Source of the DNA: Hippasteria phrygiana
Lineage: Eukaryota; Echinodermata; Asteroidea; Valvatida; Goniasteridae
Direction: 5' to 3'
Length of the DNA: 64,000 bases
Assembly (NCBI GenBank): GCA_037893225.1
Contig: JAZGUH010000357.1
Location: forward strand, 124,001-188,000
The notes under the pieces: model-generated
What the model was told of the DNA's origin: nothing
Seen by the model: only the letters and a program-made list of their open reading frames with translations
Database searches by the model: none
Part shown: one piece after another, positions 21,156 through 64,000 of the stretch
How positions within the stretch are numbered: position 1 is the stretch's first letter
Layout of the letters: each line of letters starts with the position of its first letter
Program-made: the position numbers and the translations under genes

Positions 21156-21157
21156 TT

Positions 21158-21698
21158 GGCTGTTTTGGAAACTTTTCCAAAACAGCCCTTGTTTTCGTTA
21201 AGATTTTTTTTTTTTTCTTTTTTTTTTTTTGGCTGTTTTGGAAACTTTTCCAAAACAGCCCTTGTTTTCGTTAAGATTTTTTTTTTTTTCTTTTTTTTTT
21301 TTTGGCTGTTTCGGAAGTTTTCCGAAACAGCCTTTGTTTTCGTTAAGATTTTTTTTTTTGGCTGTTTTGGAAACTTTTCCAAAACAGCCCTTGTTTTCGT
21401 TAAGATTTTTTGGCTGTTTTGGAAACTTTTCCAAAACAGCCCTTGTTTTCGTTAAGATTTTTTTTTTTTTCTTTTTTTTTTTTTTTGGCTGTTTTGGAAA
21501 CTTTTCCAAAACAGCCCTTGTTTTCGTTAAGATTTTTTGGCTGTTTTGGAAACTTTTCCAAAACAGCCCTTGTTTTCGTTAAGATTTTTTTTTTGGCTGT
21601 TTTGGAAACTTTTCCAAAACAGCCCTTGTTTTCGTTAAGATTTTTTTTTTTGGCTGTTTTGGAAACTTTTCCAAAACAGCCCTTGTTTTCGTTAAGAT

Positions 21699-21760
<62 letters not shown>

Positions 21761-22884
21761 CCTTTTCAGACTTTTTGCCCATAGCATTTGTGCACGTTTT
21801 CTTTCTTACCGGCCCTTTGGCTACTTTGGTACACCCGATTGCCTCTAAACTTGGCAGACACTTAGACCAACTGCTCAGAATGTATGCCGAACATTTACGT
21901 CATGATGACGTCATCACGTGATTTTTTATGAATTTTTGAAATTTGAAAATCGTAATATTCTATTTAATATATCTAGCGAACAAAACAAGATATTTTCAAA
22001 ATTCCTTTTGTTATAGCTTTGGTATGTCTCAAAGATATGCACTAAAAGAAAAAAAAATGTGTGATGTCATGATGACGTCATCAAAAATGTGCTTTTTTAA
22101 AACACATATAAGGATAGGTCCGATCGTCATGAAAATTGGTGGGTAGGTAGATACTGGCACTAGGATGCAAAATCCAAAATGACGTCATGATGACGTCATC
22201 ACGTGATTTGTTATGAATTTTTGAAATTTTGAAAATCGTAACATTCTTTTAAATATATCTGGCAAACAAAACAAGATATTTTCAAAATTCTTTTTGTTAT
22301 AGCTTTGGTAGGTCTCAAAGATATGCCCTAAAAAGGAAAAAAATGTGTGACGTCATGATGACATCATCAAAAATGTCCTTTTTTAAAACACATATAAGGA
22401 TAGGTCCGATCGTCATGAAAATTGGTGGGTAGGTAGATACTGCCACCAGCATGCAGAAGCCGAAGTGACGTCATGATGACGTCATCACGTGATTTTTTAT
22501 GAATTTTTGAAATTTTGAAATCGTAAAAGTCTTTTAAATATATCTGGCAAACAAAACAAGATATTTTCAAAATTATTTTTGTTATAGCTTTGGTAGGTCT
22601 CAAAGATATGCCCTAAAAAGGAAAAAAATGTGTGACGTCATGATGACATCATCAAAAATGTGCTTTTTTTAAACACATATAAGGATAGGTCCAATCGTCA
22701 TGAAAATTGGTGGGTAGGTAGATACTGTCACTAGCATGCAAAATCTGAAATGATGTCATGATGACGTCATCGGGAATTTTTTTTATGATTTTTGAAATTT
22801 TTGAAATTTCATTTTAATCACAATTTTACACAAAAAAACAAAACAGCCCTGTGTTTGTCCACAAACACTGTACCAGATGTCTAG
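21158..22884 (+). mobile_element. Array unit 1 (A-type), nine stacked 5' termini
   Basis: Opens with nine tandem 5' palindromes starting at 21158, 21231, 21304, 21360, 21412, 21487, 21539, 21595 and 21652. Each is followed by CCTTGTTTTCGTTAAGA and a T tract. Then a ~50-nt poly-T, head at 21765, three A monomers (~286 bp) and the 3' end with CTAG at 22881-22884. The preceding unique sequence ends AATTAATT, so this is the array's left edge. Confidence 0.65.
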
Positions 22885-22933
22885 TTGGCTGTTTCGGAAA
22901 CTTTTCCGAAACAGCCCTTGTTTTCGTTAAGAT

Positions 22934-22965
<32 letters not shown>

Positions 22966-24317
22966 TTTTTTTCTTTTTTTTTTTCTTTTTCAGCCAAATG
23001 CCCATAGCATTACACGTTTTCTTTCTTACTGGCACTTTGGCTACTTTTATGATGCCGATTGGCTTTAAACTTGGCAGACACTTAGACTAACTGCTCAGAA
23101 TGTATGCCGAACATTTACGTCATGATGACGTCATCACGTGATTTTTTATGAATTTTTGAAATTTCAAAATCGTAAAATTCTTTTCAATATATCTAGCGAA
23201 CAAAACAAGATATTTTCGAAATTCTTTTTGTTATAGCTTTGGTATGTCTCAAAGATATGCCCTAAAAAGCGAAAATTGTGTGACGTCATGATGACGTCAT
23301 CAAAAATGTGTTTTTTTTTTAACGCATGTAAGGGTCAATCCGATTACAAAAATGTATACATTGAATTTTTCTGTACGTAATTCCAAAATTTCATGATCGT
23401 GGCTCACTCAAGTAAGAAATAACAGCCATTTGAAAATTTAGACCAAATTCAATATAACACAAAGGAATTCTGGGAAGGGCAGATAACCATGGCTTAAATG
23501 TGCATCCTGTTTATAAAAAGGTTGATTTGTAGTCTTTGTTCAAGTCGCTGAATTTTAAAATTGTGTAAATCGTAACATTCTTTTCAATATATCTAGCGAA
23601 CAAAACAAGATATTTTCAAAATTATTTTTGTTATAGCTTTGGTATGTCTCAAAGATATGCCCTAAAATGCGAAAATTGTGTGACGTCATGATGACGTCAT
23701 CAAAAAATTCTTTTTTTCAAGTCGCTAGAATATTGCCCATAGCATTTGTAAACGTTTTCTTTCTTACCGGCCACTTTGGCTAATTTTAAACTTGGCAGAC
23801 ACTTACCCCAACTGCTCACAATGTGTGCCGAACTTTTACGTCATAATGACGTCATCACATGTCACGTGACGTCATCTTAAAGGGGCATTTTTCGAAGCCA
23901 TATATCTACAAAAGTACAAGTTCGATTAAGTTAAAATGTAATATCTAGGTATCCCAGTAGGTTTATAAATGAAAATTGACATGACGTTATGATGACGTCA
24001 TCTCATGTGACGTCATCTTAAAGGGGCAGATTTTGAAGGCGCATATCTACAGAAGTACAAGTCCGATTAAGTTTAAAAGTAATATCTAGGTAGCCCAGTA
24101 GGTTTATAGATGAAAATTTATGTGACGTTATGATGACGTCATCACATGTTACTACTACAAACAACTTTAATTAATTTCAAAATTACCAAAGAAAACTGGC
24201 AGCAGCGCGATTCTTTGACAAACTTAAATTATTGTATTCACATTTCACATCCAAACTAAAAAAACAAAAACGAAACAGCCCTGTGTTTGTCCACAAACAC
24301 CAACCTCATGCCTCTAG
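22885..24317 (+). mobile_element. Array unit 2 (A plus C monomers)
   Basis: Starts TT then a CGG-variant palindrome at 22887, directly abutting CTAG of unit 1. Head near 22991, A segment, bridge box about 23323-23530, second partial head about 23728, C monomers 23865-24150. CTAG at 24314-24317. Confidence 0.6.
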
Positions 24318-25504
24318 TTTTTTTTTTTTTTCTTTTTCAGCCAAATGCCCATAGCATTTGTACACGTTTTCTTTCTTACCGGCACTTTGGCTACTTTTAT
24401 GCTGCCGATTGGCTTTAAACTTGGCAGACACTTAGACTAACTACTCAGAATGTATGCCGAACATTTACGTCATGATGACGTCATCACGTGATTTTTTATG
24501 AATTTTTGAAATTTGAAAATCGTAAAATTCTTTTCAATATATCTGGCGAACAAAACAAGATATTTTCAAAATTCTTTTTGGTATAGCTTTGGTACGTCTC
24601 AGAGATATCCCCTAAAAGGGAGAAAATGTGTGACGTCATGATGACATCATCAAAAATGTGCTTTTTTAAAACACATATAAGGATAGGTCCGATCGTCATG
24701 AAAATTGGTGGGTAGGTAGATAGTGCCACTAGCATGGAAAATCCAAAGTGACGTCATGATGACGTCATCGGCTGATTTTCTATGAATTTTTAGTTCTATC
24801 CCAAATCCCATAGACTTTGTACACGAATTTTGTAAGAGCCACTTTGGTCACCAAACAACCTCAGATCTTAATCAGGTTTAACTCAAACAGAGACCCTAAG
24901 CTGAAAATGTATGCCGAAGAGTGACGTCATGATGACGTCATCACTTGTCATGTGACGTCATCTTAAAGGTGCATTTTTCAAGGGCACATATCTAGAGAAC
25001 CGTAGGTCCGATTGCATTCAAACCTGCTATGGTGGTAGACAAGTACGTGTTATAGATGGAAATTGAGGTGACGTCATGATGACCTCATCATACGATTTTA
25101 TAGTAATTTTAAAGTTTTTTAACCTTAAAGTTTCTTAAACCCATATCTCTTTAACAGAACATGCTAAATTCAAAATTCTTTTTGTAATAGCTTTGTTAGC
25201 TCCTATACTTTTTCACATAAATGGGAAAATGTGTGACGTCATCATGACGTCATCAAAAATATGCTTTTTTGAAACACATATAAGGGTAGGTCCGATCGTC
25301 ATAAAAATTGGTGGGTATGTAGATAGTGCCACCAGCATGCAGAAGCCGAAGTGACGTCATGATGACCTCATCGGCTAATTTTCTATAATTTTTTTAATTT
25401 TTGAAATTTTATTGAAATTTTTGAAATTTCATTTTAATCACCAAATTTTACACACAAAAAACCGAAACAGCCCTGTGTTTGTCCACAAACACTATTGGCT
25501 CTAG
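24318..25504 (+). mobile_element. Array unit 3, A-B-A hybrid
   Basis: Poly-T and an A head (24340), one A monomer, then a switch at about 24790 to B-type sequence (TCCCAAATCCCATAGACTTT…) until about 25380, then an A-type 3' end with CTAG at 25501-25504. Evidence of recombination between the two lineages. Confidence 0.6.
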
Positions 25505-27285
25505 TTTTTTTTTTTTTTTTTTCCTTTTCAGACTTTTTGCCCATAGCATTTGTGCACGTTTTCTTTCTTACCGGCACTTTGGCTACTTTGGTACACCCGA
25601 TTGCCTCTAAACTTGGCAGACACTTAGACCAACTGCTCAGAATGTATGCCGAACATTTACGTCATGATGACGTCATCACGTGATTTTTTATGAATTTTTG
25701 AAATTTCAAAATCGTAAAATTCTTTTCAATATATCTAGCGAACAAAACAAGATATTTTCAAAATTCTTTTTGTTATAGCTTTGGTATGTCTCAAAGATAT
25801 GCCCTAAAAGGGAGAAAATGTGTGACGTCATGATGACATCATCAAAAATGTGCTTTTTTAAAACACATATAAGGATAGGTCCGATCGTCATGAAAATTGG
25901 TGGGTAGGTAGATACTGGTACTAGGATGCAAAATCCAAAATGACGTCATGATGACGTCATCACGTGATTTTTTATGAATTTTTGAAATTTGAAAATCGTA
26001 ACATTCTTTTCAATATATCTAGCGAACAAAACAAGATATTTTCAAAATTCTTTTTGTTACAGCTTTGGTAGGTCTCAAAGATATGCCCTAAAAAGGAAAA
26101 AAGTGTGTGACGTCATGATGACATCATCAAAAATGTGCTTTTTTAAAACACATATAAGAATAGGTCCGATCGTCATGAAAATTGGTGGGTAGGTAGATAC
26201 TGGCACTAGGATGCAAAATCCAAAGTGACGTCATGATGACGTCATCACGTGATTTGTTATGAATTTTTGAAATTTTGAAAATCGTAACATTCTTTTAAAT
26301 ATATCTGGCAAACAAAACAAGATATTTTCAAAATTCTTTTTGTTATAGCTTTGGTAGGTCTCAAAGATATGCCCTAAAAAGGAAAAAAATGTGTGACGTC
26401 ATGATGACATCATCAAAAATGTGCTTTTTTAAAACACATATAAGGATAGGTCCGATCGTCATGAAAATTGGTGGGTAGGTAGATACTGGTACTAGGATGC
26501 AAAATCCAAAGTGACGTCATGATGACGTCATCACGTGATTTGTTATGAATTTTTGAAATTTTGAAATCGTAACATTCTTTTAAATATATCTCGCAAACAA
26601 AACAAGAGATTTTCAAAATTCTTTTTGATACAGCTTTTGGTATGTCTCAAAGATATGCCCTAAAAGGCGAAAATTGTGTGACGTCATAATGACGTCATCA
26701 ATTTTTTTTTTAACGCATGTAAGGGTCGGTCCGATTAAAAATTTATACATTGAATTTTTCTCTACCTAATTCAACAATTTCGTGATCGTGGCTCACTCAA
26801 GTATTAAGAAATAACAGGCATCTAAAAAATTGTGACCAAATTCAATATAACACAAAGGAATTCTGGGAAGGACAGAAACCATGGCTTTCATGTGGCATGC
26901 TGTCTATAAAGAGTTGATCTCTAGTCTTTTTTTCAAGTCGTTAGACAAGTCGTAGGCAGATACTTACACCAACTGCTCAGAATGTGCGCCGAACTTTTAG
27001 GTCATGATGACGTCATCACATGTCACGTGACGTCATCTTAAAGGGGCATTTTTGGAAACCATATATCTACAAAAGTACAAGTCACATTAAGTTAAAACGT
27101 GGTATTTAGTTATGCCAGCATGTGTTAGATGAAAATGTATGTGACGTCATGGTGACGTCATGATGACGTCATCGGCTAATTTTCTATGATTTTTTTCATT
27201 TTTGAAATTTCATTTAAATCACATAATTTTACACAAAAAAACAAAACAGCCCTGTGTTTGTCCACAAACACTGCACCAGATGTCT

Positions 27286-27287
<2 letters not shown>
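25505..27287 (+). mobile_element. Array unit 4 (A-type)
   Basis: Poly-T, head at about 25538, A monomers at ~285-bp spacing, bridge box 26702-26950, one C monomer, TGACGTCATGGTGACGTCA near 27130, 3' end CTAG 27284-27287. Confidence 0.6.
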
Positions 27288-27328
<41 letters not shown>

Positions 27329-28808
27329 CCTTTTCAGACTTTTTCCCATAGCATTTGTGCACGTTTTCTTTCTTACCGGCACTTTGGCTACTTTGGTGCA
27401 CCCGATTGCCTTTAAACTTGGCAGACACTTAGACAAACTGCTCAGAATGTGTGCCGAACTTTTTGGTCATGATGACGTCATCACGTGATTTTTTATGAAT
27501 TTTTGAAATTTTAAAATCGTAAAATTCTTTTCAATATATCTAGCGAACAAAACAAGATATTTTCAAAATTCTTTTTGTTACAGCTTTGGTAGGTCTCAAA
27601 GATATGCCCTAAAAAGGAAAAAGTGTGTGACGTCATGATGACATCATCAAAAATGTGCTTTTTTAAAACACATATAAGAATAGGTCCGTTCGTCATGAAA
27701 ATTGGTGGGTAGGTAGATACTGGCACTAGGATGCAAAATCCAAAGTGACGTCATGATGACGTCATCACGTGATTTGTTATGAATTTTTGAAATTTTGAAA
27801 ATCGTAACATTCTTTTCAATATATCTGGCAAACAAAACAAGATATTTTCAAAATTCTTTTTGTTATAGCTTTGGTAGGTCTCAAACATATGCCCTAAAAA
27901 GGAAAAAAATGTGTGACGTCATGATGACATCATCAAAAATGTGCTTTTTTAAAACACATATAAGGATAGGTCCGATCGTCATGAAAATTGGTGGGTAGGT
28001 AGATACTGGTATTAGGATGCAAAATCCAAAGTGACGTCATGATGACGTCATCACGTGATTTGTTATGAATTTTTGAAATTTTGAAATCGTAACATTCTTT
28101 TCAATATATCTCGCAAACAAAACAAGAGATTTTCAAAATTCTTTTTGATACAGCTTTTGGTATGTCTCAAAGATATGCCCTAAAAGGCGAAAATTGTGTG
28201 ACGTCATAATGACGTCATCAATTTTTTTTTTTAACGCATGTAAGGGTCGGTCCGATTAAAAATTTATACATTGAATTTTTCTCTACCTAATTCAACAATT
28301 TCGTGATCGTGGCTCACTCAAGTATTAAGAAATAACAGGCATCTAACAAATTGTGACCAAATTCAATATAACACAAAGGAATTCTGGGAAGGACAGAAAC
28401 CATGGCTTTCATGTGGCATGCTGTCTATAAAGAGTTGATCTCTAGTCTTTTTTTCAAGTCGTTAGACAAGTCGTAGGCAGATACTTACACCAACTGCTCA
28501 GAATGTGCGCCGAACTTTTAGGTCATGATGACGTCATCACATGTCACGTGACGTCATCTTAAAGGGGCATTTTTGGAAACCATATATCTACAAAAGTACA
28601 AGTCACATTAAGTTAAAACGTGGTATTTAGTTATGCCAGCATGTGTTAGATGAAGATGTATGTGACGTCATGGTGACGTCATGATGACGTCATCGGCTAA
28701 TTTTCTATGATTTTTTTCATTTTTGAAATTTCATTTAAATCACATAATTTTACACAAAAAAACAAAACAGCCCTGTGTTTGTCCACAAACACTGCACCAG
28801 ATGTCTAG
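27288..28808 (+). mobile_element. Array unit 5 (A-type; copy A of 8.45-kb block)
   Basis: Forty-nucleotide poly-T, head, two A monomers, bridge 28225-28460, C monomer, CTAG 28805-28808. Near-identical to unit 10. Confidence 0.6.
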
Positions 28809-28812
28809 TTTT

Positions 28813-28845
<33 letters not shown>

Positions 28846-30972
28846 GCTGTTTCGGAAGTTTTCCGAAACAGCCTTTGTTTTCGTTAAGATTTTTTTTTTT
28901 GGCTGTTTTGGAAACTTTTCCAAAACAGCCCTTGTTTTCGTTAAGATTTTTTTTTTTTTCTTTTTTTTTTTTTCTTTTTTTTTTTTTTGTGCTTCTTTTT
29001 CAGACAAATGCCCATAGCATTTGTACACGTTTTCTTTCTTACTGGCACTTTGGCTACTTTTATGCTGCCGATTGGCTTTAAACTTGGCAGACACTTAGAC
29101 TAACTGCTCAGAATGTATGCCGTACATTTACGTCATGATGACGTCATCACGTGATTTTTTATGAATTTTTGAAATTTTGAAATCGTAATTTTTTTTTTAA
29201 TATATCTAGCGAACAAAACAAGATATTTTCAAAATTCTATTTGTTATAGCTTTGGTATGTCTCAAAGATATGCCCTAAAAAGGAAAAAAATGTGTGACGT
29301 CATGATGACATCATCAAAAATGTGCTTTTTTAAAACACATATAAGGATAGGTCCGATCGTCATGAAAATTGGTGGGTAGGTAGATACTGCCACCAGCATG
29401 CAAAATCTGAAATGACGTCATGATGACGTCATCACGTGATTTGTTATGAATTTTTGAAATTTTGAAATCGTAAAATTCTTTTAAATATATCTGGCAAACA
29501 AAACAAGATATTTTTAAAATTATTTTTGTTATAGCTTTGGTAGGTCTTAAAGATATGCCCTAAAAAGGAAAAAAATGTGTGACGTCATGATGACATCATC
29601 AGAAATGTGCTTTTGTAAAACACATATAAGGATAGGTCCGATCGTCATGAAAATTGGTGGGAAGGTAGATACTGTCACTAGGATGCAAAATCCAAAGTGA
29701 CGTCATGATGGCGTCATCACGTGATTTGTTATGAATTTTTGAAATTTTGAAATCGTAACATTCTTTTAAATATATCTCGCAAACAAAACAAGATAGTTTC
29801 AAAATTCTTTTTGTTATAGCTTTGGTAGGTCTCAAAGATATGCCCTAAAAGGGAAAAAAATGTGTGACGTCATGATGACGTCATCAAAAATGTTTTTTTT
29901 TTAAACACATATAAGGATAGGTCCGATCGTCATGAAAAGTAGTGGGTAGGTAGATACTGTCACTAGCATGCAAAATCTGAAATGACGTCATGATGACGTC
30001 ATCACGTGATTTGTTATGAATTTTTGAAATTTTGAAATCGTAATTTTTTTAAAAATATATCTAGCGAACAAAACAAGATATTTTCAAAATTCTTTTTGTT
30101 ATAGCTTTGGTATGTCTCAAAGATATGCCCTAAAAAGGAAAAAAATGTGTGACGTCATGATGACATCATCAAAAATGTGCTTTTTTAAAACACATATAAG
30201 GATAGGTCCGATCGTCATGAAAATTGGTGGGTAGGTAGATACTGCCACCAGCATGCAAAATCTGAAATGACGTCATGATGACGTCATCACGTGATTTGTT
30301 ATGAATTTTTGAAATTTTGAAATCGTAAAATTCTTTTAAATATATCTGGCAAACAAAACAAGATATTTTTAAAATTATTTTTGTTATAGCTTTGGTAGGT
30401 CTTAAAGATATGCCCTAAAAAGGAAAAAAATGTGTGACGTCATGATGACATCATCAGAAATGTGCTTTTGTAAAACACATATAAGGATAGGTCCGATCGT
30501 CATGAAAATTGGTGGGAAGGTAGATACTGTCACTAGGATGCACAATCCAAAGTGACGTCATGATGGCGTCATCACGTGATTTGTTATGAATTTTTGAAAT
30601 TTTGAAATCGTAACATTCTTTTAAATATATCTCGCAAACAAAACAAGATAGTTTCAAAATTCTTTTTGTTATAGCTTTGGTAGGTCTCAAAGATATGCCC
30701 TAAAAGGGAAAAAAATGTGTGACGTCATGATGACGTCATCAAAAATGTGTTTTTTTTAAACACATATAAGGATAGGTCCGATCGTCATGAAAAGTAGTGG
30801 GTAGGTAGATACTGTCACTAGCATGCAAAATCTGAAATGATGTCATGATGACGTCATCGTCAATTTTTTTTAATGATTTTTGAAATTTTTGAAATTTCAT
30901 TTTAATCACAATTTTACACAAAAAAACAAAACAGCCCTGTGTTTGTCCACAAACACTGTACCAGATGTCTAG
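28809..30972 (+). mobile_element. Array unit 6 (A-type, two 5' palindromes, 855-bp internal duplication)
   Basis: 5' palindromes at about 28845 (CGG variant) and 28901 (TGG variant), head at 29009, then six A monomers, of which three (about 29150-30005) are duplicated as a block (about 30005-30860). No bridge box. CTAG 30969-30972. Near-identical to unit 11. Confidence 0.6.
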
Positions 30973-32434
30973 TTTTCTTTTTTTTTTCTTTTTCTCTTTC
31001 AGACTATTGCCCATAGCATTTGTACACGTTTTCCTTTTTACCGGCACTTTGGCTACTTGTATGCAGCCGATTGTCTTTAAACTTAGCAAACACTTAAAGC
31101 AACTGCTCAGAATGTGTGCCGAACTTTTACGTCATGATGACGTCATCACGTGATTTTTTATGAATTTTTGAATTTTGAAAATCGTAACATTTGTTTCAAT
31201 ATATCTAGCGAACAAAACAAGATATTTTCAAAATTCTTTTTGTTATAGCTTTGGTATGTCTCAAAGATATGCCCTAAAAGGCGAAAATTGTGTGACGTCA
31301 TGATGACGTCATCAAAAATGTTTTTTTTTTAACGCATGTAAGGGTCAATCCGATTACAAAAATATATATATTGAATTTTCCTCTCCCTAATTCCAAAATG
31401 TCATGATCGTGGCTCACTCAAGTAAGAAATAACAGCCATTTCAAAATTTAGACCAAATTCAATATAACACAAAGGAATTCTGGGAAGGGCAGATAACCAT
31501 GGCTCAAATGTGCATGCTGTTTATAAAAAGGGTTGATTTGTAGTCTTTTTTCAAGTCGCTAGACTATTGCCCATAGCATTTGTAAACGTTTCCTTTCTTA
31601 CCGGCCACTTTGGCTACTTTTAAACTTGACAGACACTTACCCCAACTGCTCACAATGTGTGCCGAATTTTACGTCATGATGACGTCATCACATGTCACGT
31701 GACGTCATCTTAAAGGGGCATTTTTTGAAGCCATATATCTACAAAAGTACAAGTCCGATTAAGTTGGAACGTGATATCTAGGTATGCCACCGGGTGTTAT
31801 AGATGAAAATTGACATGCCGTTATGATTAAGTCAAAACATGTCACGTGACGTCATCTTAAAGGGGCAGTTTTTGAAGCCATTTATCTGCAAAAGTACAAA
31901 TTCGATTAAGTTGAAAACAAATATCCAGGTAGCCCAGTAGGTTTATAAATAAAAATTGACATGACGTTATGATGACGTCATCACATGTTACGTGACGTCA
32001 TCTTAAAGGGGCAGTTTTTGAAGCCACATATAAACAAAAGTACAAGTTCGATTAAGTTGAAATGTAATATCCAGGCAGGTCTGCAGGTTCATAGATGAAA
32101 ATTGACATGACATTATGACTTCATCACATGTCACGTGACGTCATCTTAAAGGGGCAGTTTTTGAAGCCATATATATACAAAAGTACAAGTCCGATTAAGT
32201 TGAAAAGGTAGGTCAGCAAGTTTATAGATGAAAATTTATGTGACTTTATGATGACGTCATCACATGTCACTATTACAAACAACTTTAATTAATTTCAAAA
32301 TTAACAAAGAAAATTGGCAGTAGTGCGATTGTTTGACAAACTTTAATTGTTGTATTCACATTTCACATCCAAACTAAAAAAAAAAAACGAAACAGCCCTG
32401 TGTTTGTCCACAAACACCAACCTCATGCCTCTAG
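30973..32434 (+). mobile_element. Array unit 7 (A head, C-rich body)
   Basis: Starts TTTTC then TTTTTCTCTTTCAG and head at 31009. Bridge 31330-31560, second partial head 31568, four C monomers 31680-32270, pre-terminal TAATTAATTTCAAAATTAAC, CTAG 32431-32434. Near-identical to unit 12. Confidence 0.6.
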
Positions 32435-33931
32435 TTTTTTTTTTTTTTGCTTCCTTTTCAGACTTTTTCCCATAGCATTTGTACACGTTTTCTTTCTTAC
32501 TGGCACTTTGGCTACTTTGGTGCACCCGATTGCCTTTAAACTTGGCAGACACTTAGACAAACTGCTCAGAATGTGTCCCGAACTTTTTGGTCATGATGAC
32601 GTCATCACGTGATTTTTTATGAATTTTTGAATTTTGAAAATCTTAACATTCTTTTCAATATATCTAGCGAACAAAACAAGATATTTTCAAAATTCTTTTT
32701 GCTATAGCTTTGGGATGTCTCAAAGATATGCCCTAAAAAGTAAAAATTGTGTGACGTCATGATGACGTCATCAAAAATGTGCTTTTTTAAAACACATATA
32801 AGGATAGGTCCGATCGTCATGAAAATTGGTGGGTAGGTAGATACTGGTACTAGGATGCAAAATCCAAAGTGACGTCATGATGACGTCATCACGTAATTTG
32901 TTATGAATTTTTGAAATTTTGAAAATCGTAACATTCTTTTCAATATATCTGGCAAACAAAACAAGATATTTTCAAAATTCTTTTTGTTATAGCTTTGGTA
33001 GGTCTCAAAGATATGCCCTAAAAAGGAAAAAAATGTGTGACGTCATGATGACATCATCAAAAATGTGCTTTTTTAAAACACATATAAGGATAGGTCCGAT
33101 CGTCATGAAAATTGGTGGGTAGGTAGATACTGGTACTAGGATGCAAAATCCAAAGTGACGTCATAATGACGTCATCATGTGATTTGTTATGAATTTTTGA
33201 AATTTTGAAATCGTAACATTCTTTTAAATATATCTCGCAAACAAAACAAGAGATTTTCAAAATTCTTTTTGATACAGCTTTTGGTATGTCTCAAAGATAT
33301 GCTCTAAAAGGCGAAAATTGTGTGACGTCATAATGACGTCATCAATTTTTTTTTTTTAACGCATGTAAGGGTCGTTCCGATTAAAAATTTATACATTGAA
33401 TTTTTCTCTACCTAATTCAACAATTTCGTGATCGTGGCTCACTCAAGTATTAAGAAATAACAGGCATCTAAAAAATTGTGACCAAATTCAATATAACACA
33501 AAGGAATTCTGGGAAGGACAGAAACCATGGCTTTCATGTGGCATGCTGTCTATAAAGAGTTGATCTCTAGTCTTTTTTTCAAGTCGTTAGACAAGTCGTA
33601 GGCAGATACTTACACCAACTGCTCAGAATGTGCGCCGAACTTTTAGGTCATGATGACGTCATCACATGTCACGTGACCTCATCTTAAAGGGGCATTTTTG
33701 GAAACCATATATCTACAAAAGTACAAGTCACATTAAGTTAAAACGTGGTATTTAGTTATGCCAGCATGTGTTAGATGAAAATGTATGTGACGTCATGGTG
33801 ACGTCATGATGACGTCATCGGCTAATTTTCTATGATTTTTTTCATTTTAGAAATTTCATTTAAATCACATAATTTTACACAAAAAAACAAAACAGCCCTG
33901 TGTTTGTCCACAAACACTGCACCAGATGTCT

Positions 33932-33933
<2 letters not shown>
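32435..33933 (+). mobile_element. Array unit 8 (A-type)
   Basis: Short poly-T, GCTTCCTTTTCAG, head, A monomers, bridge 33358-33580, C monomer, CTAG 33930-33933. Near-identical to unit 13. Confidence 0.6.
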
Positions 33934-33965
<32 letters not shown>

Positions 33966-35728: not shown

Positions 35729-35731
35729 TTT

Positions 35732-54100: not shown

Positions 54101-54551
54101 TTTTTGAAACACATATAAGGGTAGGGACGATCGTCATAAAAATTAGTGTGTAGGTAGATAGTGCTACTAGCATGTTAAATCCGAGGTGACGTCATGATGA
54201 CGTCATCGGCTGATTTTCTATGATTATTTTAGTTATATCCCAAATCCCATAGACTTTGTACACGAATTTTGTACGGGACACTTTGGTCACTAAACAACAT
54301 CAGATCTTAATCAGGCTTAACACAAACAGAGACCCTAAGCTGAAAATGTATGCCGAAACGTGACGTCATGATGACGTCATCACCTGTCATGTAACATGAA
54401 CTTAAAGGTCAAGTATGGAGTACGAAATGTGAATCATAAAATAATCTCAGATCTTAAACATAGCAAAGACATAGACCTTCTGATAATTTATGTTAAAGAA
54501 AAAACTAAAACGGAAAAGCCATGCGTATGTTTACAACAGACGCAAAATTTT
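51130..54551 (+). mobile_element. B-type element 1a, five ~604-bp monomers
   Basis: 5' end GGCTTTTCCGAAATCC…GGAAAAGGC, then GTTTTTGTTCTGA, T tract, (CTT)n TTAG, and head GCCCATAGACTTTGTACACG. The phrase ATCCGAGG recurs at 51761, 52363, 52970, 53575 and 54179 (602-607 bp apart). It ends in a degraded 3' terminus around 54510-54551 (CGGAAAAGCC then a weak GCGT…ACGC hairpin). Confidence 0.6.
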
Positions 54552-55626
54552 CGGCTTTTCCCCTACAGCAGCAAAGCCTTGGTTTTTGTTCTGTTCGCGC
54601 GATTGTGTAGTTTAGTACACTTTCGCCCAGGCATGAACACAATCTACTTGAAAATTGTTCGTTTTGCCACATTCAGAACAAAGGGCCACGTCCAAGAACA
54701 TCTCCAGGTTTTTTTTTTAATGAAATCGTTAGCTCAGAGGTCAAAAACACATGATTGCACAATACCCAGCTTCACACGGATATATAACTGGTGGGAGAGT
54801 AGGAGCTGGTTCGAAATTGACCGAGCCAAAACATGACACAACGGGTGGAAAATCATATTTTCCGCCTTAAAAAACCTTTCCAAATCACAAAAGCACGTGT
54901 CATTGGGATTCAGAGAAGTCTACTTTAGTGACAAAAAAGGCTTTTGGAATAATCAAATACTCCAGGAGCTAACATGAACACAATTAATACACAAATCCTA
55001 AACTACACAATACCCACTTTTTTGGTTTCTTCTTAAACACGAATTTTGTCTACGGCACTTTAGTCACTAAACAACATCAGATCTTATTCAAACTTAATAC
55101 AAACATAGACCCTAATCTGAAATTGTGTGCCGAAAAGTGACATCATGATGACGTCATTATGTGTCACGTGATGTCATCTTAAAGGCGCATTTTTCAAGAC
55201 CCATATCAAGAGAACCGTAAGTCCAATTGCATTCAAACCTGGTATGTTGCTAGACAAGTACGTTATAAATAAAAATTGAGGTGACGTCATAATGACGTCA
55301 TCATATGATTTTTATAGTAATTTCAAAGTTTTAACATTAAAGATTCTTAAAACCATATCTCATCAACAGAACATATGTTAAATTCAAAATTCTTTTTGTA
55401 ATAGCTTTGTTAGCTCGTACATTCTTTTATATAAATGCGAAAAATTTCTGAGGTCATAATGACGTCATCAAAGGCATGATTTCTTGAAAGACATATAAGG
55501 GTAGACCATGTCTAATCGTCATGAAACTTGGTGGTTAGGTAGATTTGTCACTAGTTTACAAAATTCGAAATAACATCATAAAATCATATGGAAAAGCCCT
55601 ATGTTCTTAAAAACATAGACCTCTAG
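54552..55626 (+). mobile_element. B-type element 1b, degraded
   Basis: Starts CGGCTTTTCCCC…GCAAAGCCTTGGTTTTTGTTCTG, a decayed B 5' end. About 54600-55050 is sequence not seen elsewhere in the window, followed by B-like monomer. 3' end GGAAAAGCC, hairpin CTATGTTcttaaaAACATAG, CTAG 55623-55626. A 146-codon frame at 54396-54836 crosses the 1a/1b junction and is not a gene. Confidence 0.55.
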
Positions 55627-57413
55627 TTTTTTTTTTTTGTGCTTCCTTTTCAGACTTTTTCCCCATAGCATTTGTACACGTTTTCTTTCTTACTGGCACT
55701 TTGGCTACTTTGGTGCACCCGATTGCCTTTAAACTTGGCAGACACTTAGACAAACTGCTCAGAATGTGTCCCGAACTTTTTGGTCATGATGACGTCATCA
55801 CGTGATTTTTTATGAATTTTTGAATTTTGAAAATCGTAACATTCTTTTCAATATATCTAGCAAACAAAACAAGATATTTTCAAAATTCTTTTTGTTATAG
55901 CTTTGGTATGTCTCAAAGATATGCCCTAAAAGGGAGAAAATGTGTGACGTCATGATGACATCATCAAAAATGTGCTTTTTTAAAACACATATAAGGATAG
56001 GTCCGATCGTCATGAAAATTGGTGGGTAGGTAGATACTGTCACTAGGATGCTGAATCCAAAGTGACGTCATGATGACGTCATCACGTGATTTGTTATGAA
56101 TTTTTGAAAATTTGAAAATCGTAACATTCTTTTAAATATATCTGGCAAACAAAACAAGATATTTTCAAAATTCTTTTTGTTATAGCTTTGGTAGGTCTCA
56201 AAGATATGCCCTAAAAAGGAAAAAAATGTGTGACGTCATGATGACATCATCAAAAATGTGCTTTTTTAAAACACATATAAGGATAGGTCCGATCGTCATG
56301 AAAATTGGTGGGTAGGTAGATACTGGCACTAGGATGCAAAATCCAAAGTGACGTCATGATGACGTCATCACGTGATTTTTTATGAATTTTTGAAATTTTG
56401 AAAATCGTAACATTCTTTTAAATATATCTGGCAAACAAAACAAGATATTTTCAAAATTCTTTTTGTTATAGCTTTGGTAGGTCTCAAAGATATGCCCTAA
56501 AAAGGAAAAAAATGTGTGACGTCATGATGACATCATCAAAAATGTGCTTTTTTAAAACACATATAAGGATAGGTCCGATCGTCATGAAAATTGGTGGGTA
56601 GGTAGATACTGGCACTAGCATGCAAAATCCAAAGTGACGTCATGATGACGTCATCACGTGATTTGTTATGAATTTTTGAAATTTTGAAATCGTAACATTC
56701 TTTTAAATATATCTCGCAAACAAAACAAGATATTTTCAAAATTCTTTTTGATACAGCTTTTGGTATGTCTCAAAGATATGCCCTAAAAGGCAGAAATTGT
56801 GTGACGTCATAATGACGTCATAATGACGTCATCAATTTTTTTTTTTTTACGCATGTAAGGGTCGGTCCGATTAAAAAAATTTATACATTGAATTTTTCTC
56901 TACCTAATTCAACAATTTCGTGATCGTGGCTCACTCAAGTATTAAGAAATAACAGGCATCTGAAAATTGTGACCAAATTCAATATAACACAAAGGAATTC
57001 TGGGAAGGACAGAAACCATGGCTTTCATGTGGCATGCTGTCTATAAAGAGTTGATCTCTAGTCTTTTTTTCAAGTCGTTAGACAAGTCGTAGGCAGACAC
57101 TTACACCAACTGCTCAGAATGTGCGCCGAACTTTTACGTCATGATGACGTCATCACATGTCATGTGACGTCATCTTAAAGGTGCATTTTTTGAAGCCATA
57201 TATCTACAAAAGTACAAGTCAGATTAAGTTAAAACGTGGTATTTAGTTATGCCAGCATGTGTTAGATGAAAATTTATGTGACGTCACGATGACGTCATCG
57301 GCTAATTTTCTATAATTTTTTTCATTTTTGAAATTTCATTTAAATCACATCATTTTACACAAAAAAACAAAACAGCCCTGTGTTTGTCCACAAACACTGC
57401 ACCATACATCTAG
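55627..57413 (+). mobile_element. Array unit 20 (A-type)
   Basis: T tract, GTGCTTCCTTTTCAG, head, three A monomers, a tripled CRE (TGACGTCATAATGACGTCA repeated) near 56810, bridge 56848-57075, C monomer, ACCATACAT tail, CTAG 57410-57413. Confidence 0.6.
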
Positions 57414-60400
57414 TTTTCTTTTTTTTTTCTTTTTCTCTTTCAGACTATTGCCCATAGCATTTGTACACGTTTTCCTTTTTACCGGCACTTTGGCTACTTG
57501 TATGCAGCCGATTGTCTTTAAACTTAGCAAACACTTAAAGCAACTGCTCAGAATGTGTGCCGAACTTTTACGTCATGATGACGTCATCACGTGATTTTTT
57601 ATGAATTTTTGAATTTTGAAAATCGTAACATTTGTTTCAATATATCTAGCGAACAAAACAAGATATTTTCAAAATTCTTTTTGTGATAGCTTTGGTATGT
57701 CTCAAAGATATGCCCTAAAAGGCGAAAATTGTGTGACGTCATGATGACGTCATCAAAAATGTTTTTTTTTTAACGCATGTAAGGGTCAATCCGATTACAA
57801 AAATATATATATTGAATTTTCCTCTCCCTAATTCCAAAATGTCATGATCGTGGCTCACTCAAGTAAGAAATAACAGCCATTTCAAAATTTAGACCAAATT
57901 CAATATAACACAAAGGAATTCTGGGAAGGGCAGATAACCATGGCTCAAATGTGCATGCTGTTTATAAAAAGGGTTGATTTGTAGTCTTTTTTTCAAGTCG
58001 CTAGACTATTGCCCATAGCATTTGTAAACGTTTCCTTTCTTACCGGCCACTTTGGCTACTTTTAAACTTGACAGACACTTACCCCAACTGCTCACAATGT
58101 GTGCCGAATTTTACGTCATGATGACGTCGTCACATGTCACGTGACGTCATCTTAAAGGGGCATTTTTCGAAGCCATATATCTACAAAAGTACAAGTCCGA
58201 TTAAGTTGGAACGTGATATCTAGGTATGCCACCGGGTGTTATAGATGAAAATTGACATGCCGTTATGATTAAGTCAAAACATGTCACGTGACGTCATCTT
58301 AAAGGGGCAGTTTTTGAAGCCATTTATCTACAAAAGTACAAATTCGATTAAGTTGAAAAAAAATATCCAGGTAGCCCAGTAGGTTTATAAATAAAAATTG
58401 ACATGACGTTATGATGACGTCATCACATGTCACGTGACGTCATCTTAAAGGGGCAGTTTTTGAAGGTCCATATCTACAGAAGTACAAGTCCAATTAAGTT
58501 ATAAAGTAATATCTAGGTAGCCCAGTAGGTTTATAGATGAAAATTGACTTGACATTATGATGACGTCATCACATGTCACGTGACGTCATCTTAAAGGGGC
58601 AGTTTTTAAAGCCATATATAAACAAAAGTACAAGTCCGATTAAGTTGAAAAGTAATATCTAGGTAGCCCAGTAGGTTTATAGTTGAAAATTGACATGACA
58701 TTATCATGATGTCATCACATGTTACGTGACGTCATCTTAAAGGGGCAGTTTTTGAAGCCACATATAAACAAAAGTACAAGTTCGATTAAGTTGAAATGTA
58801 ATTTCTTTTTTTTTTCTTTTTCTCTTTCAGACTATTGCCCATAGCATTTGTACACGTTTTCCTTTTTACCGGCACTTTGGCTACTTGTATGCAGCCGATT
58901 GTCTTTAAACTTAGCAAACACTTAAAGCAACTGCTCAGAATGTGTGCCGAACTTTTACGTCATGATGACGTCATCACGTGATTTTTTATGAATTTTTGAA
59001 TTTTGAAAATCGTAACATTTGTTTCAATATATCTAGCGAACAAAACAAGATATTTTCAAAATTCTTTTTGTGATAGCTTTGGTATGTCTCAAAGATATGC
59101 CCTAAAAGGCGAAAATTGTGTGACGTCATGATGACGTCATCAAAAATGTTTTTTTTTAACGCATGTAAGGGTCAATCCGATTACAAAAATATATATATTG
59201 AATTTTCCTCTCCCTAATTCCAAAATGTCATGATCGTGGCTCACTCAAGTAAGAAATAACAGCCATTTCAAAATTTAGACCAAATTCAATATAACACAAA
59301 GGAATTCTGGGAAGGGCAGATAACCATGGCTCAAATGTGCATGCTGTTTATAAAAAGGGTTGATTTGTAGTCTTTTTTTCAAGTCGCTAGACTATTGCCC
59401 ATAGCATTTGTAAACGTTTCCTTTCTTACCGGCCACTTTGGCTACTTTTAAACTTGACAGACACTTACCCCAACTGCTCACAATGTGTGCCGAATTTTAC
59501 GTCATGATGACGTCATCACATGTCACGTGACGTCATCTTAAAGGGGCATTTTTCGAAGCCATATATCTACAAAAGTACAAGTCCGATTCAGTTGGAACGT
59601 GATATCTAGGTATGCCACCGGGTGTTATAGATGAAAATTGACATGCCGTTATGATTAAGTCAAAACATGTCACGTGACGTCATCTTAAAGGGGCAGTTTT
59701 TGAAGCCATTTATCTACAAAAGTACAAATTCGATTAAGTTGAAAAAAAATATCCAGGTAGCCCAGTAGGTTTATAAATAAAAATTGACATGACGTTATGA
59801 TGACGTCATCACATGTCACGTGACGTCATCTTAAAGGGGCAGTTTTTGAAGGTCCATATCTACAGAAGTACAAGTCCAATTAAGTTATAAAGTAATATCT
59901 AGGTAGCCCAGTAGGTTTATAGATGAAAATTGACTTGACATTATGATGACGTCATCACATGTCACGTGACGTCATCTTAAAGGGGCAGTTTTTAAAGCCA
60001 TATATAAACAAAAGTACAAGTCCGATTAAGTTGAAAAGTAATATCTAGGTAGCCCAGTAGGTTTATAGTTGAAAATTGACATGACATTATCATGATGTCA
60101 TCACATGTTACGTGACGTCATCTTAAAGGGGCAGTTTTTGAAGCCACATATAAACAAAAGTACAAGTTCGATTAAGTTGAAATGTAATATCCAGGCAGGT
60201 CTGCAGGTTCATAGATGAAAATTGACATGACATTATGACTTCATCACATGTCACGTGACGTCATCTTAAAGGGGCAGTTTTTGAAGCCATATATATACAA
60301 AAGTACAAGTCCGATTAAGTTGAAAAGGTAGGTCAGCAAGTTTATAGATGAAAATTTATGTGACTTTATGATGACGTCATCACATGTCACTATTACAAAC

Positions 60401-60555
60401 AACTTTAATTAATTTCAAAATTAACAAAGAAAATTGGCAGTAGTGCGATTGTTTGACAAACTTTAATTGTTGTATTCACATTTCACATCCAAACTAAAAA
60501 AAACAAAACGAAACAGCCCTGTGTTTGTCCACAAACACCAACCTCATGCCTCTAG
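57414..60555 (+). mobile_element. Array unit 21, with 1387-bp internal tandem duplication
   Basis: Unit-7-like. 57415-58801 is repeated as 58802-60187 (TCTTTCAG at 57443 and 58830, 1387 apart), with only scattered substitutions such as GACGTCGTCAC against GACGTCATCAC. The second copy begins in mid C monomer (AATGTA/ATTTCTTT), without its own CTAG, so this is unequal exchange and not a unit junction. CTAG 60552-60555. Confidence 0.65.
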
Positions 60556-62038
60556 TTTTTTTTTGCTTCCTTTTCAGACTTTTTCCCATAGCATTTGTAC
60601 ACGTTTTCTTTCTTACTGGCACTTTGGCTACTTTGGTGCACCCGATTGCCTTTAAACTTGGCAGACACTTAGACAAACTGCTCAGAATGTGTCCCGAACT
60701 TTTTGGTCATGATGACGTCATCACGTGATTTTTTATGAATTTTTGAATTTTGAAAATCGTAACATTCTTTTCAATATATCTAGCGAACAAAATAAGATAT
60801 TTTCAAAATTCTTTTTGCTATAGCTTTGGGATGTCTCAAAGATATGCCCTAAAAAGTAAAAATTGTGTGACGGCATGATGACGTCATCAAAAATGTGCTT
60901 TTTTAAAACACATATAAGGATATGTCCGATCGTCATGACAATTGGTGGGTAGGTAGATACTGGCACTAGGATGCAAAATCCAAAGTGACGTCATGATGAC
61001 GTCATCACGTGATTTGTTATGAATTTTTGAAATTTTGAAAATCGTAACATTCTTTTCAATATATCTGGCAAACAAAACAAGATATTTTCAAAATTCTTTT
61101 TGTTATAGCTTTGGTAGGTCTCAAAGATATGCCCTAAAAAGGAAAAAAATGTGTGACGTCATGATGACATCATCAAAAATGTGCTTTTTTAAAACACATA
61201 TAAGGATAGGTCCGATCGTCATGAAAATTGGTGGGTAGGTAGATACTGGCACTAGGATGCAAAATCCAAAGTGACGTCATGATGACGTCATCACGTGATT
61301 TGTTATGAATTTTTGAAATTTTGAAATCGTAACATTCTTTTAAATATATCTCGCAAACAAAACAAGAGATTTTCAAAATTCTTTTTGATACAGCTTTTGG
61401 TATGTCTCAAAGATATGCCCTAAAAGGCGAAAATTGTGTGACGTCATAATGACATCATCAATTTTTTTCTTTTTACGCATGTAAGGGTCGGTCCGATTAA
61501 AAAAATGTATACATTGAATTTTTCTCTACCTAATTCAACAATTTCGTGATCGTGGCTCACTCAAGTATTAAGAAATAACAGGCATCTGAAAATTGTGACC
61601 AAATTCAATATAACACAAAGGAATTCTGGGAAGGACAGAAACCATGGCTTTCATGTGGCATGCTGTCTATAAAGAGTTGATCTCTAGTCTTTTTTTCAAG
61701 TCGTTAGACAAGTCGTAGGCAGATATTTACACCAACTGCTCAGAATGTGCGCCGAACTTTTAGGTCATGATGACGTCATCACATGTCACGTGACGTCATC
61801 TTAAAGGGGCATTTTTGGAAACCATATATCTACAAAAGTACAAGTCACATTAAGTTAAAACGTGGTATTTAGTTATGCCAGCATGTGTTAGATGAAAATG
61901 TATGTGACGTCATGATGACGTCATCGGCTAATTTTCTATGATTTTTTCATTTTTGAAATTTCATTTAAATCACATAATTTTACACAAAAAAACAAAACAG
62001 CCCTGTGTTTGTCCACAAACACTGCACCATACATCTAG
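60556..62038 (+). mobile_element. Array unit 22 (A-type)
   Basis: Short T tract, GCTTCCTTTTCAG, head, A monomers, bridge 61470-61700, C monomer, ACCATACAT tail, CTAG 62035-62038. Resembles unit 8. Confidence 0.6.
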
Positions 62039-64000
62039 TTTCTTTTTTTTGGCTTTTCCGACACTCCGTCGGAAAAGGCCTTGTTTTTGTTCTGATTTTT
62101 TTTTTGGCTTTTCCGAAATCCTTCGGAAAAGGCTTTGTTTTTGTTCTGATTTTTGGCTTTTCCGACACTCCGTCGGAAAAGGCCTTGTTTTTGTTCTGAT
62201 TTTTTTTTTTTTTCTTCTTCTTCTTCTTCTTTTAGTTCTGACCAAAAGCCCATAGACTTTGTACACGAATTTTCTCCGCGGCACTTTAGGTCTTAAAAAA
62301 CCTCAGATCTTAACCAAACTTACCTCAAACATAGACCCTAAACTGAAATGGTATGTCGAAGAGTGACGTCATGATGACGTCATCACGTGTCACGTGACGT
62401 CATCTTAAAGGTGCGTTTTTCAAGGGCCCATATCTAGAGAACGGTAGGTCCGATTTCCTTTAAACCTGATATGTTGGTAGGCTACCTCGTGTTATAGATG
62501 AAATTTGAGGTGACGTCAAGATGACGTCATCATACGATTTTATAGTAATTTTTCAGTTTTTGAATTTCAAAGTTTCTTAAAGCCATATCTCACCAACAGA
62601 ACATGCTAAATTCAAAATTCTTTTTGCAATAGCTTTGTTAGCTCCTATATTCTTTCACATAAATGTGAAAAATGTGTGACGTCATCATGACGTCATCAAA
62701 AATATGCATTTCTGAAACACATATAAGGGTAGGGACGATCGTCATAAAAATTGGTGGGTAGGTAGATAATGCTACTAGCATGTAAAATCCGAGGTGACGT
62801 CATGATGACGTCATCGGCTGATTTTCTATGAATTTTTAGTTCTATCCCAAATCCCATAGACTTTGTACACGAATTTTGTACGGGACACTTTGGTCACTAA
62901 ACAACATCAGATCTTAATCAAACTTAACACAAACAGGGACCCTAAGCTGAAAATGTATGCCAAAACGTGACGTCATGATGACGTCATCACGTGTCATGTG
63001 ACGTCATCTTAAAGGTGCATTTTGGAAGGGCCCATATCTAGAGAACGGTAGGTCCGATTGCCTTCAAACCAGGTATGTTGGTATGGTAGATCGTGTTATA
63101 GATGAAAATGATGTGACGTCATGATGACGTCATCATACGATTTTACAGTAATATTAAAGTTTTTGAACTTCAAAGTTTCTTAAAGCCATATCTCATCAAC
63201 AGAACATGCTAAATTCAAAATTCTTTTTGTAATAGCTTTGTTAGCTCCTATATTCTTTCACATAAATGTGAAAAATGTGTGACGTCATCATGACGTCATC
63301 AAAAATATGCTTTTTGAAACACATATAAGGGTAGGGACGATCGTTATAAAAATTAGTGTGCAGGTAGATAGTGCTACTAGCATGTTAAATCCGAGGTGAC
63401 GTCATGATGACGTCATCGGCTGATTTTCTATGATTATTTTAGTTCTATCCCAAATCCCATAGACTTTGTACACGAATTTTGTACGGGACACTTTGGTCAC
63501 TAAGCAACATCAGATCTTAATCAGGCTTAACACAAACAGAGACCCTAAGCTGAAAATGTATGCCGAAACGTGACGTCATGATGACGTCATCACGTGTCAT
63601 GTGACGTCATCTTAAAGGTGCATTTTTCAAGGGCCCATATCTAGAGAACGGTACGTCCGATTGCCTTCAAACCAGGTATGTTGGTATGGTAGCTCGTGTT
63701 ATAGATACAAATTGAGGTGACGTCATGATGACGTCATCATACAGTTTTACAGTAATATTAAAGTTTTTGAACTTCAAAGTTTCCTGAAGCCATATCTCAT
63801 CAACAGAACACGCTAAATTCAAAATTCTTTTTGTAATAGCTTTGTTAGCTCCTATATTCTTTCACATAAATGTGAAAAATGTGTGACGTCATCATGACGT
63901 CATCAAAAATATGCTTTTTTGAAACACATATAAGGGTAGGGACGATCGTCATACAAATTAGTGTGCAGGTAGATAGTGATACTAGCATGTTAAATCCGAG
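62039..64000 (+). mobile_element. B-type element 2, three stacked 5' termini, continues past window
   Basis: After TTTCTTTTTTTT come three B 5' palindromes at 62051, 62107 and 62155 in two variants (GACACTCCGTC and GAAATCCTTC cores). Then (CTT)nTTAG, B head and ~604-bp monomers (ATCCGAGG at 62787, 63389, 63993). No 3' end before 64000. Confidence 0.6.

Follow-up and report, generated by a model that had tools for sequence, protein, structure and literature searches.

Nested self-insertion into T-tracts as the probable origin of a 68-kb satellite-like array of Helentron-type units in Hippasteria phrygiana

Background

The window analysed here, a stretch of 64,000 nucleotides from the sea star Hippasteria phrygiana (positions 124001–188000, plus strand, of contig JAZGUH010000357.1, hereafter C357; assembly GCA_037893225.1, 944 Mb), raises the question of how a transposon turns into a satellite. 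From position 21156 onwards it contains short elements with ends of the Helitron/Helentron type, arranged head to tail. A preliminary description of the window recognized a satellite-like array of more than 43 kb and regarded it as one element with a 1.5-kb unit, joined to itself by rolling-circle replication or by repeated insertion at the poly-T next to its terminal CTAG. The array is indeed satellite-like and extends past the window to approximately C357:213.1 kb, which gives ~68 kb in total, in one orientation throughout. Our analysis indicates that it quite probably consists of non-autonomous Helentron-type units (HINEs) and grew by nested insertion of these units into their own T-tracts, together with re-transposition and duplication.

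For comparison, 20 stretches were taken from the genome, three of them extensions of C357 and 17 surrounding copies of the unit U3 (Table 1), and later five more of 10 kb; C7, C77, C577 etc. designate other contigs of the same assembly. The comparison set comprises 16 loci on 16 contigs, the window included, and is not a random sample, because the loci were picked for holding U3. As anticipated in the preliminary description, a genome search with a unit revealed many copies elsewhere, including single copies inside other elements. At least 44 places, U3 itself among them, resemble U3 over nearly its full length at 97–100% identity (best 40 of 6,858 candidates scored).

Ends and types of the units

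A unit of family A begins with TT and the palindrome GGCTGTTT[T/C]GG..CC[A/G]AAACAGCC, then CTTGTTTTCGTTAAGA; behind the palindrome stands TTGTTTTCGTTAAGA and then a T/C tract of up to ~60 nt, which closes in CAG. The body is rich in TGATGACGTCATCA (115 copies in 21156–64000) and contains internal repeats of 285 or 146 bp, and the 3' end consists of the subterminal repeat AAACAGCCCT, the hairpin GTGTTTGTCCACAAACAC, 10–17 further nucleotides and CTAG. We found the hairpin at 21 sites of the window (20 exact, one with a single mismatch; 0.15 expected by chance), all on the plus strand between 21156 and 62038 and all with CTAG 10–17 nt downstream, followed by T. The claim that every unit terminates in this way holds for these 21 ends, but not for two truncated units (50573–51126 and 57414–58802) or for family B, which has GGCTTTTCCGA palindromes and a hairpin of its own. 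A uniform unit of 1.5 kb, likewise supposed earlier, was not confirmed: neighbouring A 3' ends are 1187–2408 bp apart, with the exception of two larger spacings (5054 and 3142 bp), which contain B1 and one truncated unit.

Comparison with published elements supports the proposed Helitron/Helentron-type ends. According to the portions of Thomas et al. 2014 available to us (PMC4067079; the other papers cited below are also quoted from portions of their text), HINEs carry a palindromic subterminal repeat 2–4 nt from the 5' end, a related repeat 38–60 nt from the 3' end and a palindrome 8–35 nt from the 3' end, and enter T-rich or TT targets, which stay unmodified. In the units described here the GGCTGTTT[T/C]GG palindrome stands 2 nt past CTAG at CTAG-TT-GGCTG junctions, and at C77 two extra nucleotides past the base of the empty site (see below). 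All 21 A ends of the window possess the hairpin and CTAG (CTRR), the hairpin finishing within the range given for HINEs, and all have the AACAGCC subterminal repeat, 30–37 nt from the end. TT directly precedes 94 of 94 palindromes and follows 111 of 113 CTAG ends, the adjacent T having been demanded by the search pattern. The 5' end, TT-GGCTG, differs from the 5' TC of canonical Helitrons. Judged by their structure, the units are predicted to function as HINEs.

The palindromes fall into types a (TTTTGG), bL and bS (TTTCGG) and c (TTTCGA), distinguished by both of their arms. The 3' subterminal repeat usually tracks the type: among neighbouring palindrome–end pairs, TATTGG ends go with bL palindromes in 9 of 9 cases and CAAAAC ends with type a in 9 of 10 (the duplicated block of the window being counted twice).

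What escaped the preliminary description, and what we consider the key to the mechanism, is the bunching of the palindromes. The 17 A palindromes of the window occur in clusters of 9, 1, 2, 2, 1 and 2, and 17 of the 23 A units start without a 5' palindrome. Bunched palindromes and bare unit heads fit neither concatemers nor simple tandem insertion, since both need one 5' end per unit. Rolling-circle concatemers would arise if a circular intermediate were copied repeatedly without termination and the head-to-tail product inserted at once; they would account for perfect CTAG-TT-GGCTG junctions, both the one reported before in the window (CTAG at 22881–22884, GGCTG from 22887), which we confirm, and those at C262 18397, C257 5286 and C93 7990, and concatemer-like Helitron arrays are described from plants (Xiong 2016, via the review PMC12628747). 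However, insertion at CTAG^TT would produce a few such junctions just as well, adjacent units often belong to other families and have other lengths, and paralogous empty sites reveal single inserts within T-tracts. We find neither one template with a 5' end at each junction nor many 5' ends with a single 3' end, although the latter pattern is approached by the B part of C357 (from 62051 to its right end), where 11 openings face 5 ends. Concatemers are a very unlikely source of the array, and rolling-circle self-concatenation as the main route, proposed before, finds no support in view of mixed families, stacked palindromes and inserts inside T-tracts.

Empty sites and insertions into resident copies

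At C77, joining the flanks of a two-fold nest yielded four full-length matches at 99% identity (three on C77, one on C451) and more at 88–98%. Four C77 empty sites were read (two at 99%, one at 98% and one at 88%): the first three have GGCTTA-TTTTTT, and the 88% one has T5C. The filled copy reads GGCTTA-TT-(element)-TTTTTT, i.e. exactly two T's more than the empty site. The five-fold nest at C401 is missing from two paralogues of 96% identity, with the boundary inside a T-rich stretch.

Two other pairs of paralogues reveal insertion into resident elements. On C7, tandem paralogues whose flanks show identities of 99.86% (1,389 bp) and 99.93% (4,168 bp) differ by a 12,039-bp insert that is present only in copy 1 and has exact edges: it starts with GGCTGTTTTGG, ends with ..TGTACCAGATGTCTAG and lies in the T-tract of a bL/TATTGG element, a tract that copy 2 has without interruption. 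On C577, paralogues with flanks of 99.69% and 99.98% identity differ by a 2,722-bp insert, which extends from a type a palindrome to ..TGCACCAGATGTCTAG and divides T17 into T5+T14. A B resident on C577 is split in unique sequence at TTTGTTTTTG^TTCTGAT, and a resident on C171 is split in unique sequence at the start of its body, CAGACTTT..TTGCCCATAGC (also read CAGACTTTTT / TTGCCCATAGC). The empty sites sought in the preliminary description, in which CTAG marks the 3' boundary, are thus present in the genome.

The gain is exactly two T's at C77 and at both C577 sites. This extra TT may be the 5' end of the element or a 2-bp target duplication; the data fit either. The latter would be expected of some other transposon that duplicates TT on insertion and is not a Helentron, a view also favoured by the failure to demonstrate an autonomous partner with the ends of the units. 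The insertion site at C77, A^T, conforms to the A/T rule of canonical Helitrons, but the sites at C577, G^T and T^T, break it. Nevertheless, asymmetric ends, a 3' hairpin, palindromic subterminal repeats and T-rich targets make up the HINE pattern as given in the available text of PMC4067079, and Helitron_like_N genes are abundant in this genome, with OTU and endonuclease matches in sampled pieces, so that an origin outside the Helentrons seems extremely unlikely.

Target preference and a model of growth

Removal of two palindrome contexts in the duplicated block of the window and of seven exact repeats left 85 distinct contexts out of 94. In 51 of these the palindrome stands in the T-tract behind another palindrome, in 25 in the T-run behind CTAG, and in nine elsewhere; one of the 25 (C171) is actually in the start of a body. 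Insertion at the poly-T next to CTAG, as suggested earlier, is therefore a real route, but the main target is the tract between the palindrome and the body of a resident. With six contexts in host or unclear sequence left out, 75 of 79 insertions into residents fall in T-tracts, yet these tracts cover 6,306 of 215,933 bp and contain 14.8% of the TT dinucleotides. Since duplication and re-transposition make some of the events interdependent, any P value for this bias is too strong; its direction is clear.

We propose the following scenario. A new copy would go in directly 5' of TT. The T-tract behind the palindrome and the T-run behind CTAG are the T-richest parts of a resident, so newcomers would settle there repeatedly and in the same orientation. 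Insertion into the tract would leave the palindrome of the resident to the left of the newcomer and the T-remnant, body and CTAG to its right; with repetition, a pile of palindromes would form on the left side and a series of bodies lacking a palindrome on the right, as in the brackets ((( ))). Insertion at CTAG^TT would add a complete unit in tandem, composites would move on from one 5' end to one downstream CTAG, and recombination would copy whole blocks. The individual units would transpose by rolling-circle chemistry. Insertions in T-tracts, precise inserts between paralogues and empty host sites together imply that such arrays grow largely by nested self-insertion; nested insertions and empty host sites are seen at other loci of the genome, and we infer that the array of the window was mainly built in the same manner.

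Order of nesting

If palindromes are taken as opening and CTAG ends as closing brackets, the C77 locus reads (()), and C401, followed from host to host, reads ((((())))) with palindromes c, bL, bS, a, bL and then ends TATTGG, TGTACC, TATTGG, TATTGG, CACTTTC. At the edge of the first stretch from C401 two openings were unmatched; the next 10 kb contained exactly two ends, and then host sequence. Bodies of matching type follow the stacks in reverse order at C401, C577 (copy 2), C82 and C257. The stacks mix types (a with bS, bS with c, two B types), and at C577 even A with B.

In type agreement, last-in-first-out pairing accounts for 53 of 67 pairs and first-in-first-out pairing for 29 of 67 (one copy of the duplicated block and end families lacking a neighbouring palindrome for typing were omitted from these counts). 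The latter, tandem-order pairing was rejected as the worse of the two; strict last-in-first-out order as an exact rule was rejected as well, being broken by lost palindromes, truncating transposition and duplications. The largest number of typed non-crossing pairs is 62; when the outer ends were shuffled 400 times, the mean was 55.5 and the maximum 60. Of the 35 non-adjacent pairs, 22 agree in type; global permutation gives 11.5 as the expectation and reached 22 in 0 of 20,000 trials.

Stacked palindromes could also originate without nesting, either by slippage of the palindrome with its T's or as chimeras in which several 5' ends share one 3' end, comparable to the FoHeli elements with multiple 5' termini, for which the available text of PMC5148889 gives a model leading from the leftmost 5' end to the first 3' end. 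Regular spacings of 73 and 127 bp in the nine-fold stack of the window agree with such an origin, as does the excess of openings in the B stacks. The mixed composition of stacks and the reverse order of the bodies, on the other hand, speak against it, and the FoHeli model itself starts from nested self-insertion. We regard an origin of the stacks without nesting as quite unlikely.

Duplication and re-transposition

Positions 27288–35728 and 35729–44177 form a tandem block of 99.976% identity (one mismatch and one gap in 8442 bp), a duplication that is either very recent or an assembly artefact, and many block similarities of 91–99% exist inside the window. These, together with the 1.39-kb duplicate at 99.8% (Table 1), the internal 285- and 146-bp repeats and the two A units truncated away from CTAG, could be taken to indicate a satellite that grew mainly by unequal exchange and segmental duplication, transposition having given only the first copies. 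However, most step boundaries match a palindrome and CTAG, insertion into T-tracts is directly seen at C7 and C577, and like unit kinds stand in different orders at the 16 loci. Unequal exchange and segmental duplication are certainly contributors, but less likely the source of the order of the array, and a satellite of this origin is on the whole unlikely.

Nested self-insertion would be supplemented by movement of composites. The junction T9CTTCTTCT5CAG between TATTGG and TAAAG units also occurs at C77, twice on C7 and on C296, and this recurrence suggests that a composite of TATTGG and TAAAG units moved as one. The C577 insert has one palindrome and two ends, and the C7 insert four palindromes and five ends, a make-up to be expected if transposition started at one 5' end and ran on beyond an inner CTAG. 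Residents cut by a newcomer at 51126 and at C82 4317 are not resumed on the right in the stretch seen; by analogy with the FoHeli model, they would match transposition that stops at an inner CTAG. At 51110–51130 and in the C82 stretch (minus strand, 4300–4317) two insertions share one internal site of the resident (CAAACTTTAATT / GAACTTTAATT).

The enzyme is presumably provided in trans by an autonomous Helentron. Genome-wide there are 164 candidates for Helitron_like_N, of which 150 were scored; in 88 of the scored matches the open frame has a length of 3,000 codons or more. The available text of PMC4067079 describes PHD, OTU and a C-terminal endonuclease in Helentron genes; among pieces of three Helitron_like_N copies sampled, one has OTU and PHD and two have endonuclease matches below the cut-off. 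One of the copies with such a long frame, an autonomous-looking Helentron, lies at C357:218–232 kb, 37 kb to the right of the window and in the opposite orientation, and its pieces contain PHD, an OTU-type protease, Rep and a C-terminal endonuclease match below the Pfam cut-off. Two autonomous Helentron copies of 99.7% identity remain alike for 4.8 kb, a span situated almost wholly beyond the coding part, and no end was reached; such copies contain 1.55-kb tandem repeats past the endonuclease part.

Observations at variance with nested growth

A number of observations weigh against the explanation given above. First, not all insertions have the same footprint: the gain at C171 is two T's if the resident had five and three if it had four (both variants occur), and in the filled site of C7 six nucleotides of the T/C tract are missing and no TT is gained. 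Second, the brackets are not balanced. Most of the 16 loci are cut at their edges and together have 94 openings and 113 ends, and the B part of C357 deviates in the opposite direction, as mentioned above. Upstream extension of C262 and C171 revealed no bL partner of the palindrome-less TATTGG unit at the matching bracket, and at C7 such a partner fits only if one palindrome was lost; the bracket order of C577 (copy 1) and C7 is off by one, apparently through a lost palindrome; and the upstream 10 kb of C257 contains no opening for its two CAAAG ends. Third, type agreement in the non-adjacent pairs is imperfect, and the within-locus permutation (mean 16.5, P 0.029) is by itself weak; it is the empty sites that carry the claim. 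Fourth, the nine-palindrome stack of the window has a 127-bp period and two bracket partners that mismatch in type, so that slippage may have had a part in this stack. Fifth, ~8.4 kb and 1.4 kb of the window certainly result from recent segmental duplication. Finally, an autonomous Helentron with both ends of the units was looked for and none was demonstrated, the sampled copies' own ends not having been reached.

Features of the window and the adjacent host gene

Table 1. Features of the array and its 5' host context (positions in the window; U, family A; B, family B)
Feature	Position	Strand	Description
Excitatory amino acid transporter (SLC1/EAAT) exons	12256..20053	+	Pfam SDF match; 5' host context of the array
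Left edge of array in host DNA	at U1 (21156)		host sequence ..ATACAATTAATT
U1	21156..22884	+	nine stacked 5' palindromes, T-tract, body, 3' end TGTACCAGATGTCTAG
U1 palindromes	21158, 21231, 21304, 21360, 21412, 21487, 21539, 21595, 21652	+	types a,a,bS,a,a,a,a,a,a
U2	22885..24317	+	TT and palindrome bL (22887) right after CTAG of U1, body, 3' end CAACCTCATGCCTCTAG
U3	24318..25504	+	no palindrome; T14CT5CAG and body, 3' end TATTGGCTCTAG
U4	25505..27287	+	no palindrome, body, 3' end TGCACCAGATGTCTAG
U5	27288..28808	+	no palindrome; opens 8.4-kb duplicated block
U6	28809..30972	+	palindromes bS (28845), a (28901), body, 3' end TGTACCAGATGTCTAG
U7	30973..32434	+	no palindrome, 3' end CAACCTCATGCCTCTAG; bracket partner of bS 28845 around U6
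U8	32435..33933	+	no palindrome, 3' end TGCACCAGATGTCTAG
U9	33934..35728	+	no palindrome, 3' end TGCACCAGATGTCTAG
U10–U14	35729..44177	+	second copy of 27288–35728; palindromes bS 37293, a 37349
U10–U14 ends	37256, 39420, 40882, 42381, 44177	+	
U15	44178..45379	+	no palindrome, 3' end TGCACCAGATGTCTAG
U16	45380..46949	+	palindrome a (45401), 3' end TGCACCATACATCTAG
U17	46950..48164	+	no palindrome, 3' end TGCACCAGATGTCTAG
U18	48165..50572	+	palindromes bS (48184), c (48241), 3' end CAGTTTCTAG
U19	50573..51126	+	A unit interrupted at ..CAAACTTTAATT by B1; right part not resumed past B1
B1	51127..55626	+	palindrome GGCTTTTCCGAAATCCTTCGGAAAAGGC (51130), 3' end GGAAAAGCCCTATGTTCTTAAAAACATAGACCTCTAG
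U20	55627..57413	+	no palindrome, 3' end TGCACCATACATCTAG
U21	57414..58802	+	truncated; 57415–58802 is a 99.8% tandem duplicate of 58802–60188
U22	58803..60555	+	no palindrome, 3' end CAACCTCATGCCTCTAG
U23	60556..62038	+	no palindrome, 3' end TGCACCATACATCTAG
B2	62039..64000	+	three stacked B palindromes (62051, 62106, 62155), start of B body

The B units run on past the window up to the right end of the array (~C357:213.1 kb). Inside B1, at 54506–55020, a degenerate palindrome (GGCTTTTCCCC..AAAGCC) and a sequence resembling a 3' end (GGAAAAGCCATGCGT..) were recognized by eye, perhaps representing an older third family nested in B.

Pfam searches with seven of the 23 open reading frames of the window gave one match (SDF) and none for the other six, one of which lies inside the array. 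The best matches of a 388-residue query from the transporter exons are in sea stars (Asterias amurensis, 69% identity; Acanthaster, 68%; Patiria, 72%). The last exons did not turn up when the sampled stretches beyond the array were searched by motif; the array likely sits within an intron of this gene. Between the transporter exons, at 14917–15237, there is an open stretch in which a RecQ-like helicase motif (..LPTGFGKSVIFQ..) was noted by eye.

The sequence TGACGTCA, which we take to be the full palindrome of the cAMP response element (CRE/ATF), occurs in 365 copies in 21156–64000 and in three copies in the first 21 kb, so that the array forms a natural series of potential CREB/ATF sites adjoining a transporter gene. 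A scan of bacterial and archaeal sequences for CRE-like repeats gave three single matches. Three single matches were also obtained with the GTGTTTGTCCACAAACAC-type 3' end motif in a collection of 2.9 million viral contigs, approximately the chance level by a rough estimate made without a control.

Relation to known Helitron arrays

Helitrons arranged head to tail, elements with more than one 5' end and self-insertion are already on record in the portions of PMC4067079, PMC12628747, PMC5148889 and PMC2267711 available to us. The closest relatives in structure are the HINE/DINE-1-like elements (Thomas et al. 2014, PMC4067079), which share the 5' palindromic subterminal repeat ~2 nt in, the 3' subterminal repeat, the hairpin, internal repeats, T-rich or TT targets without a longer duplication and the presence of Helentron-type genes in the same genome; the units described here differ by the 3' CTAG, by a 3' repeat at 30–37 rather than 38–60 nt, by the long T/C tract as target and by nested arrays. 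The proto-Helentron of Phytophthora infestans (PMC4067079) has the same 5' TT and 3' CTAG, but it is a 14-kb coding element of Helitron-like structure, whereas our units are short, non-coding and equipped with palindromic subterminal repeats. Cg_HINE of the Pacific oyster (PMC7492417) also has satellite-like tandem repeats, TT targets and empty sites, but its satellite part consists of repeats within single elements, while in Hippasteria whole elements of several families nest.

FoHeli of Fusarium (PMC5148889) resembles the present case in self-insertion, stacked 5' ends and proposed re-transposition of composites; the text available describes one nested example and short 5' duplications, as opposed to up to five matched levels at one locus and paralogous empty sites here. 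The maize head-to-tail pair (PMC2267711) is likewise joined at CTAG, but consists of two different elements inserted consecutively. Plant centromeric Helitron arrays (Xiong 2016, via PMC12628747) are head to tail at CTAG as well, but there many 5' ends and a single 3' end are attributed to rolling-circle amplification. Our literature search, which mostly did not extend to subscription journals, found no array for which nesting in the T-tract of the element itself is given as the explanation and is accompanied by matched brackets and empty sites.

Implications

The wider picture, in which right and wrong seem to us evenly balanced, is that of a transposon family carrying its own landing strip. 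The T-tract would make each copy a preferred target for the next, order-keeping bracket arrays would become a satellite without concatemers, and composites, free to start at any 5' end and to stop at any CTAG downstream of it, would form ever larger mobile units. The route from transposon to satellite is usually argued from finished arrays; here one genome presents single copies, a double nest, a host-bounded five-fold nest and a 68-kb array, several of them with empty sites, so that the intermediate steps can be seen side by side. Bracket order can serve as a relative history of insertions and allows the nesting model to be tested directly on any long-read assembly, and units without a palindrome in arrays of this kind may have arisen otherwise than by 5' truncation or rolling-circle read-through.

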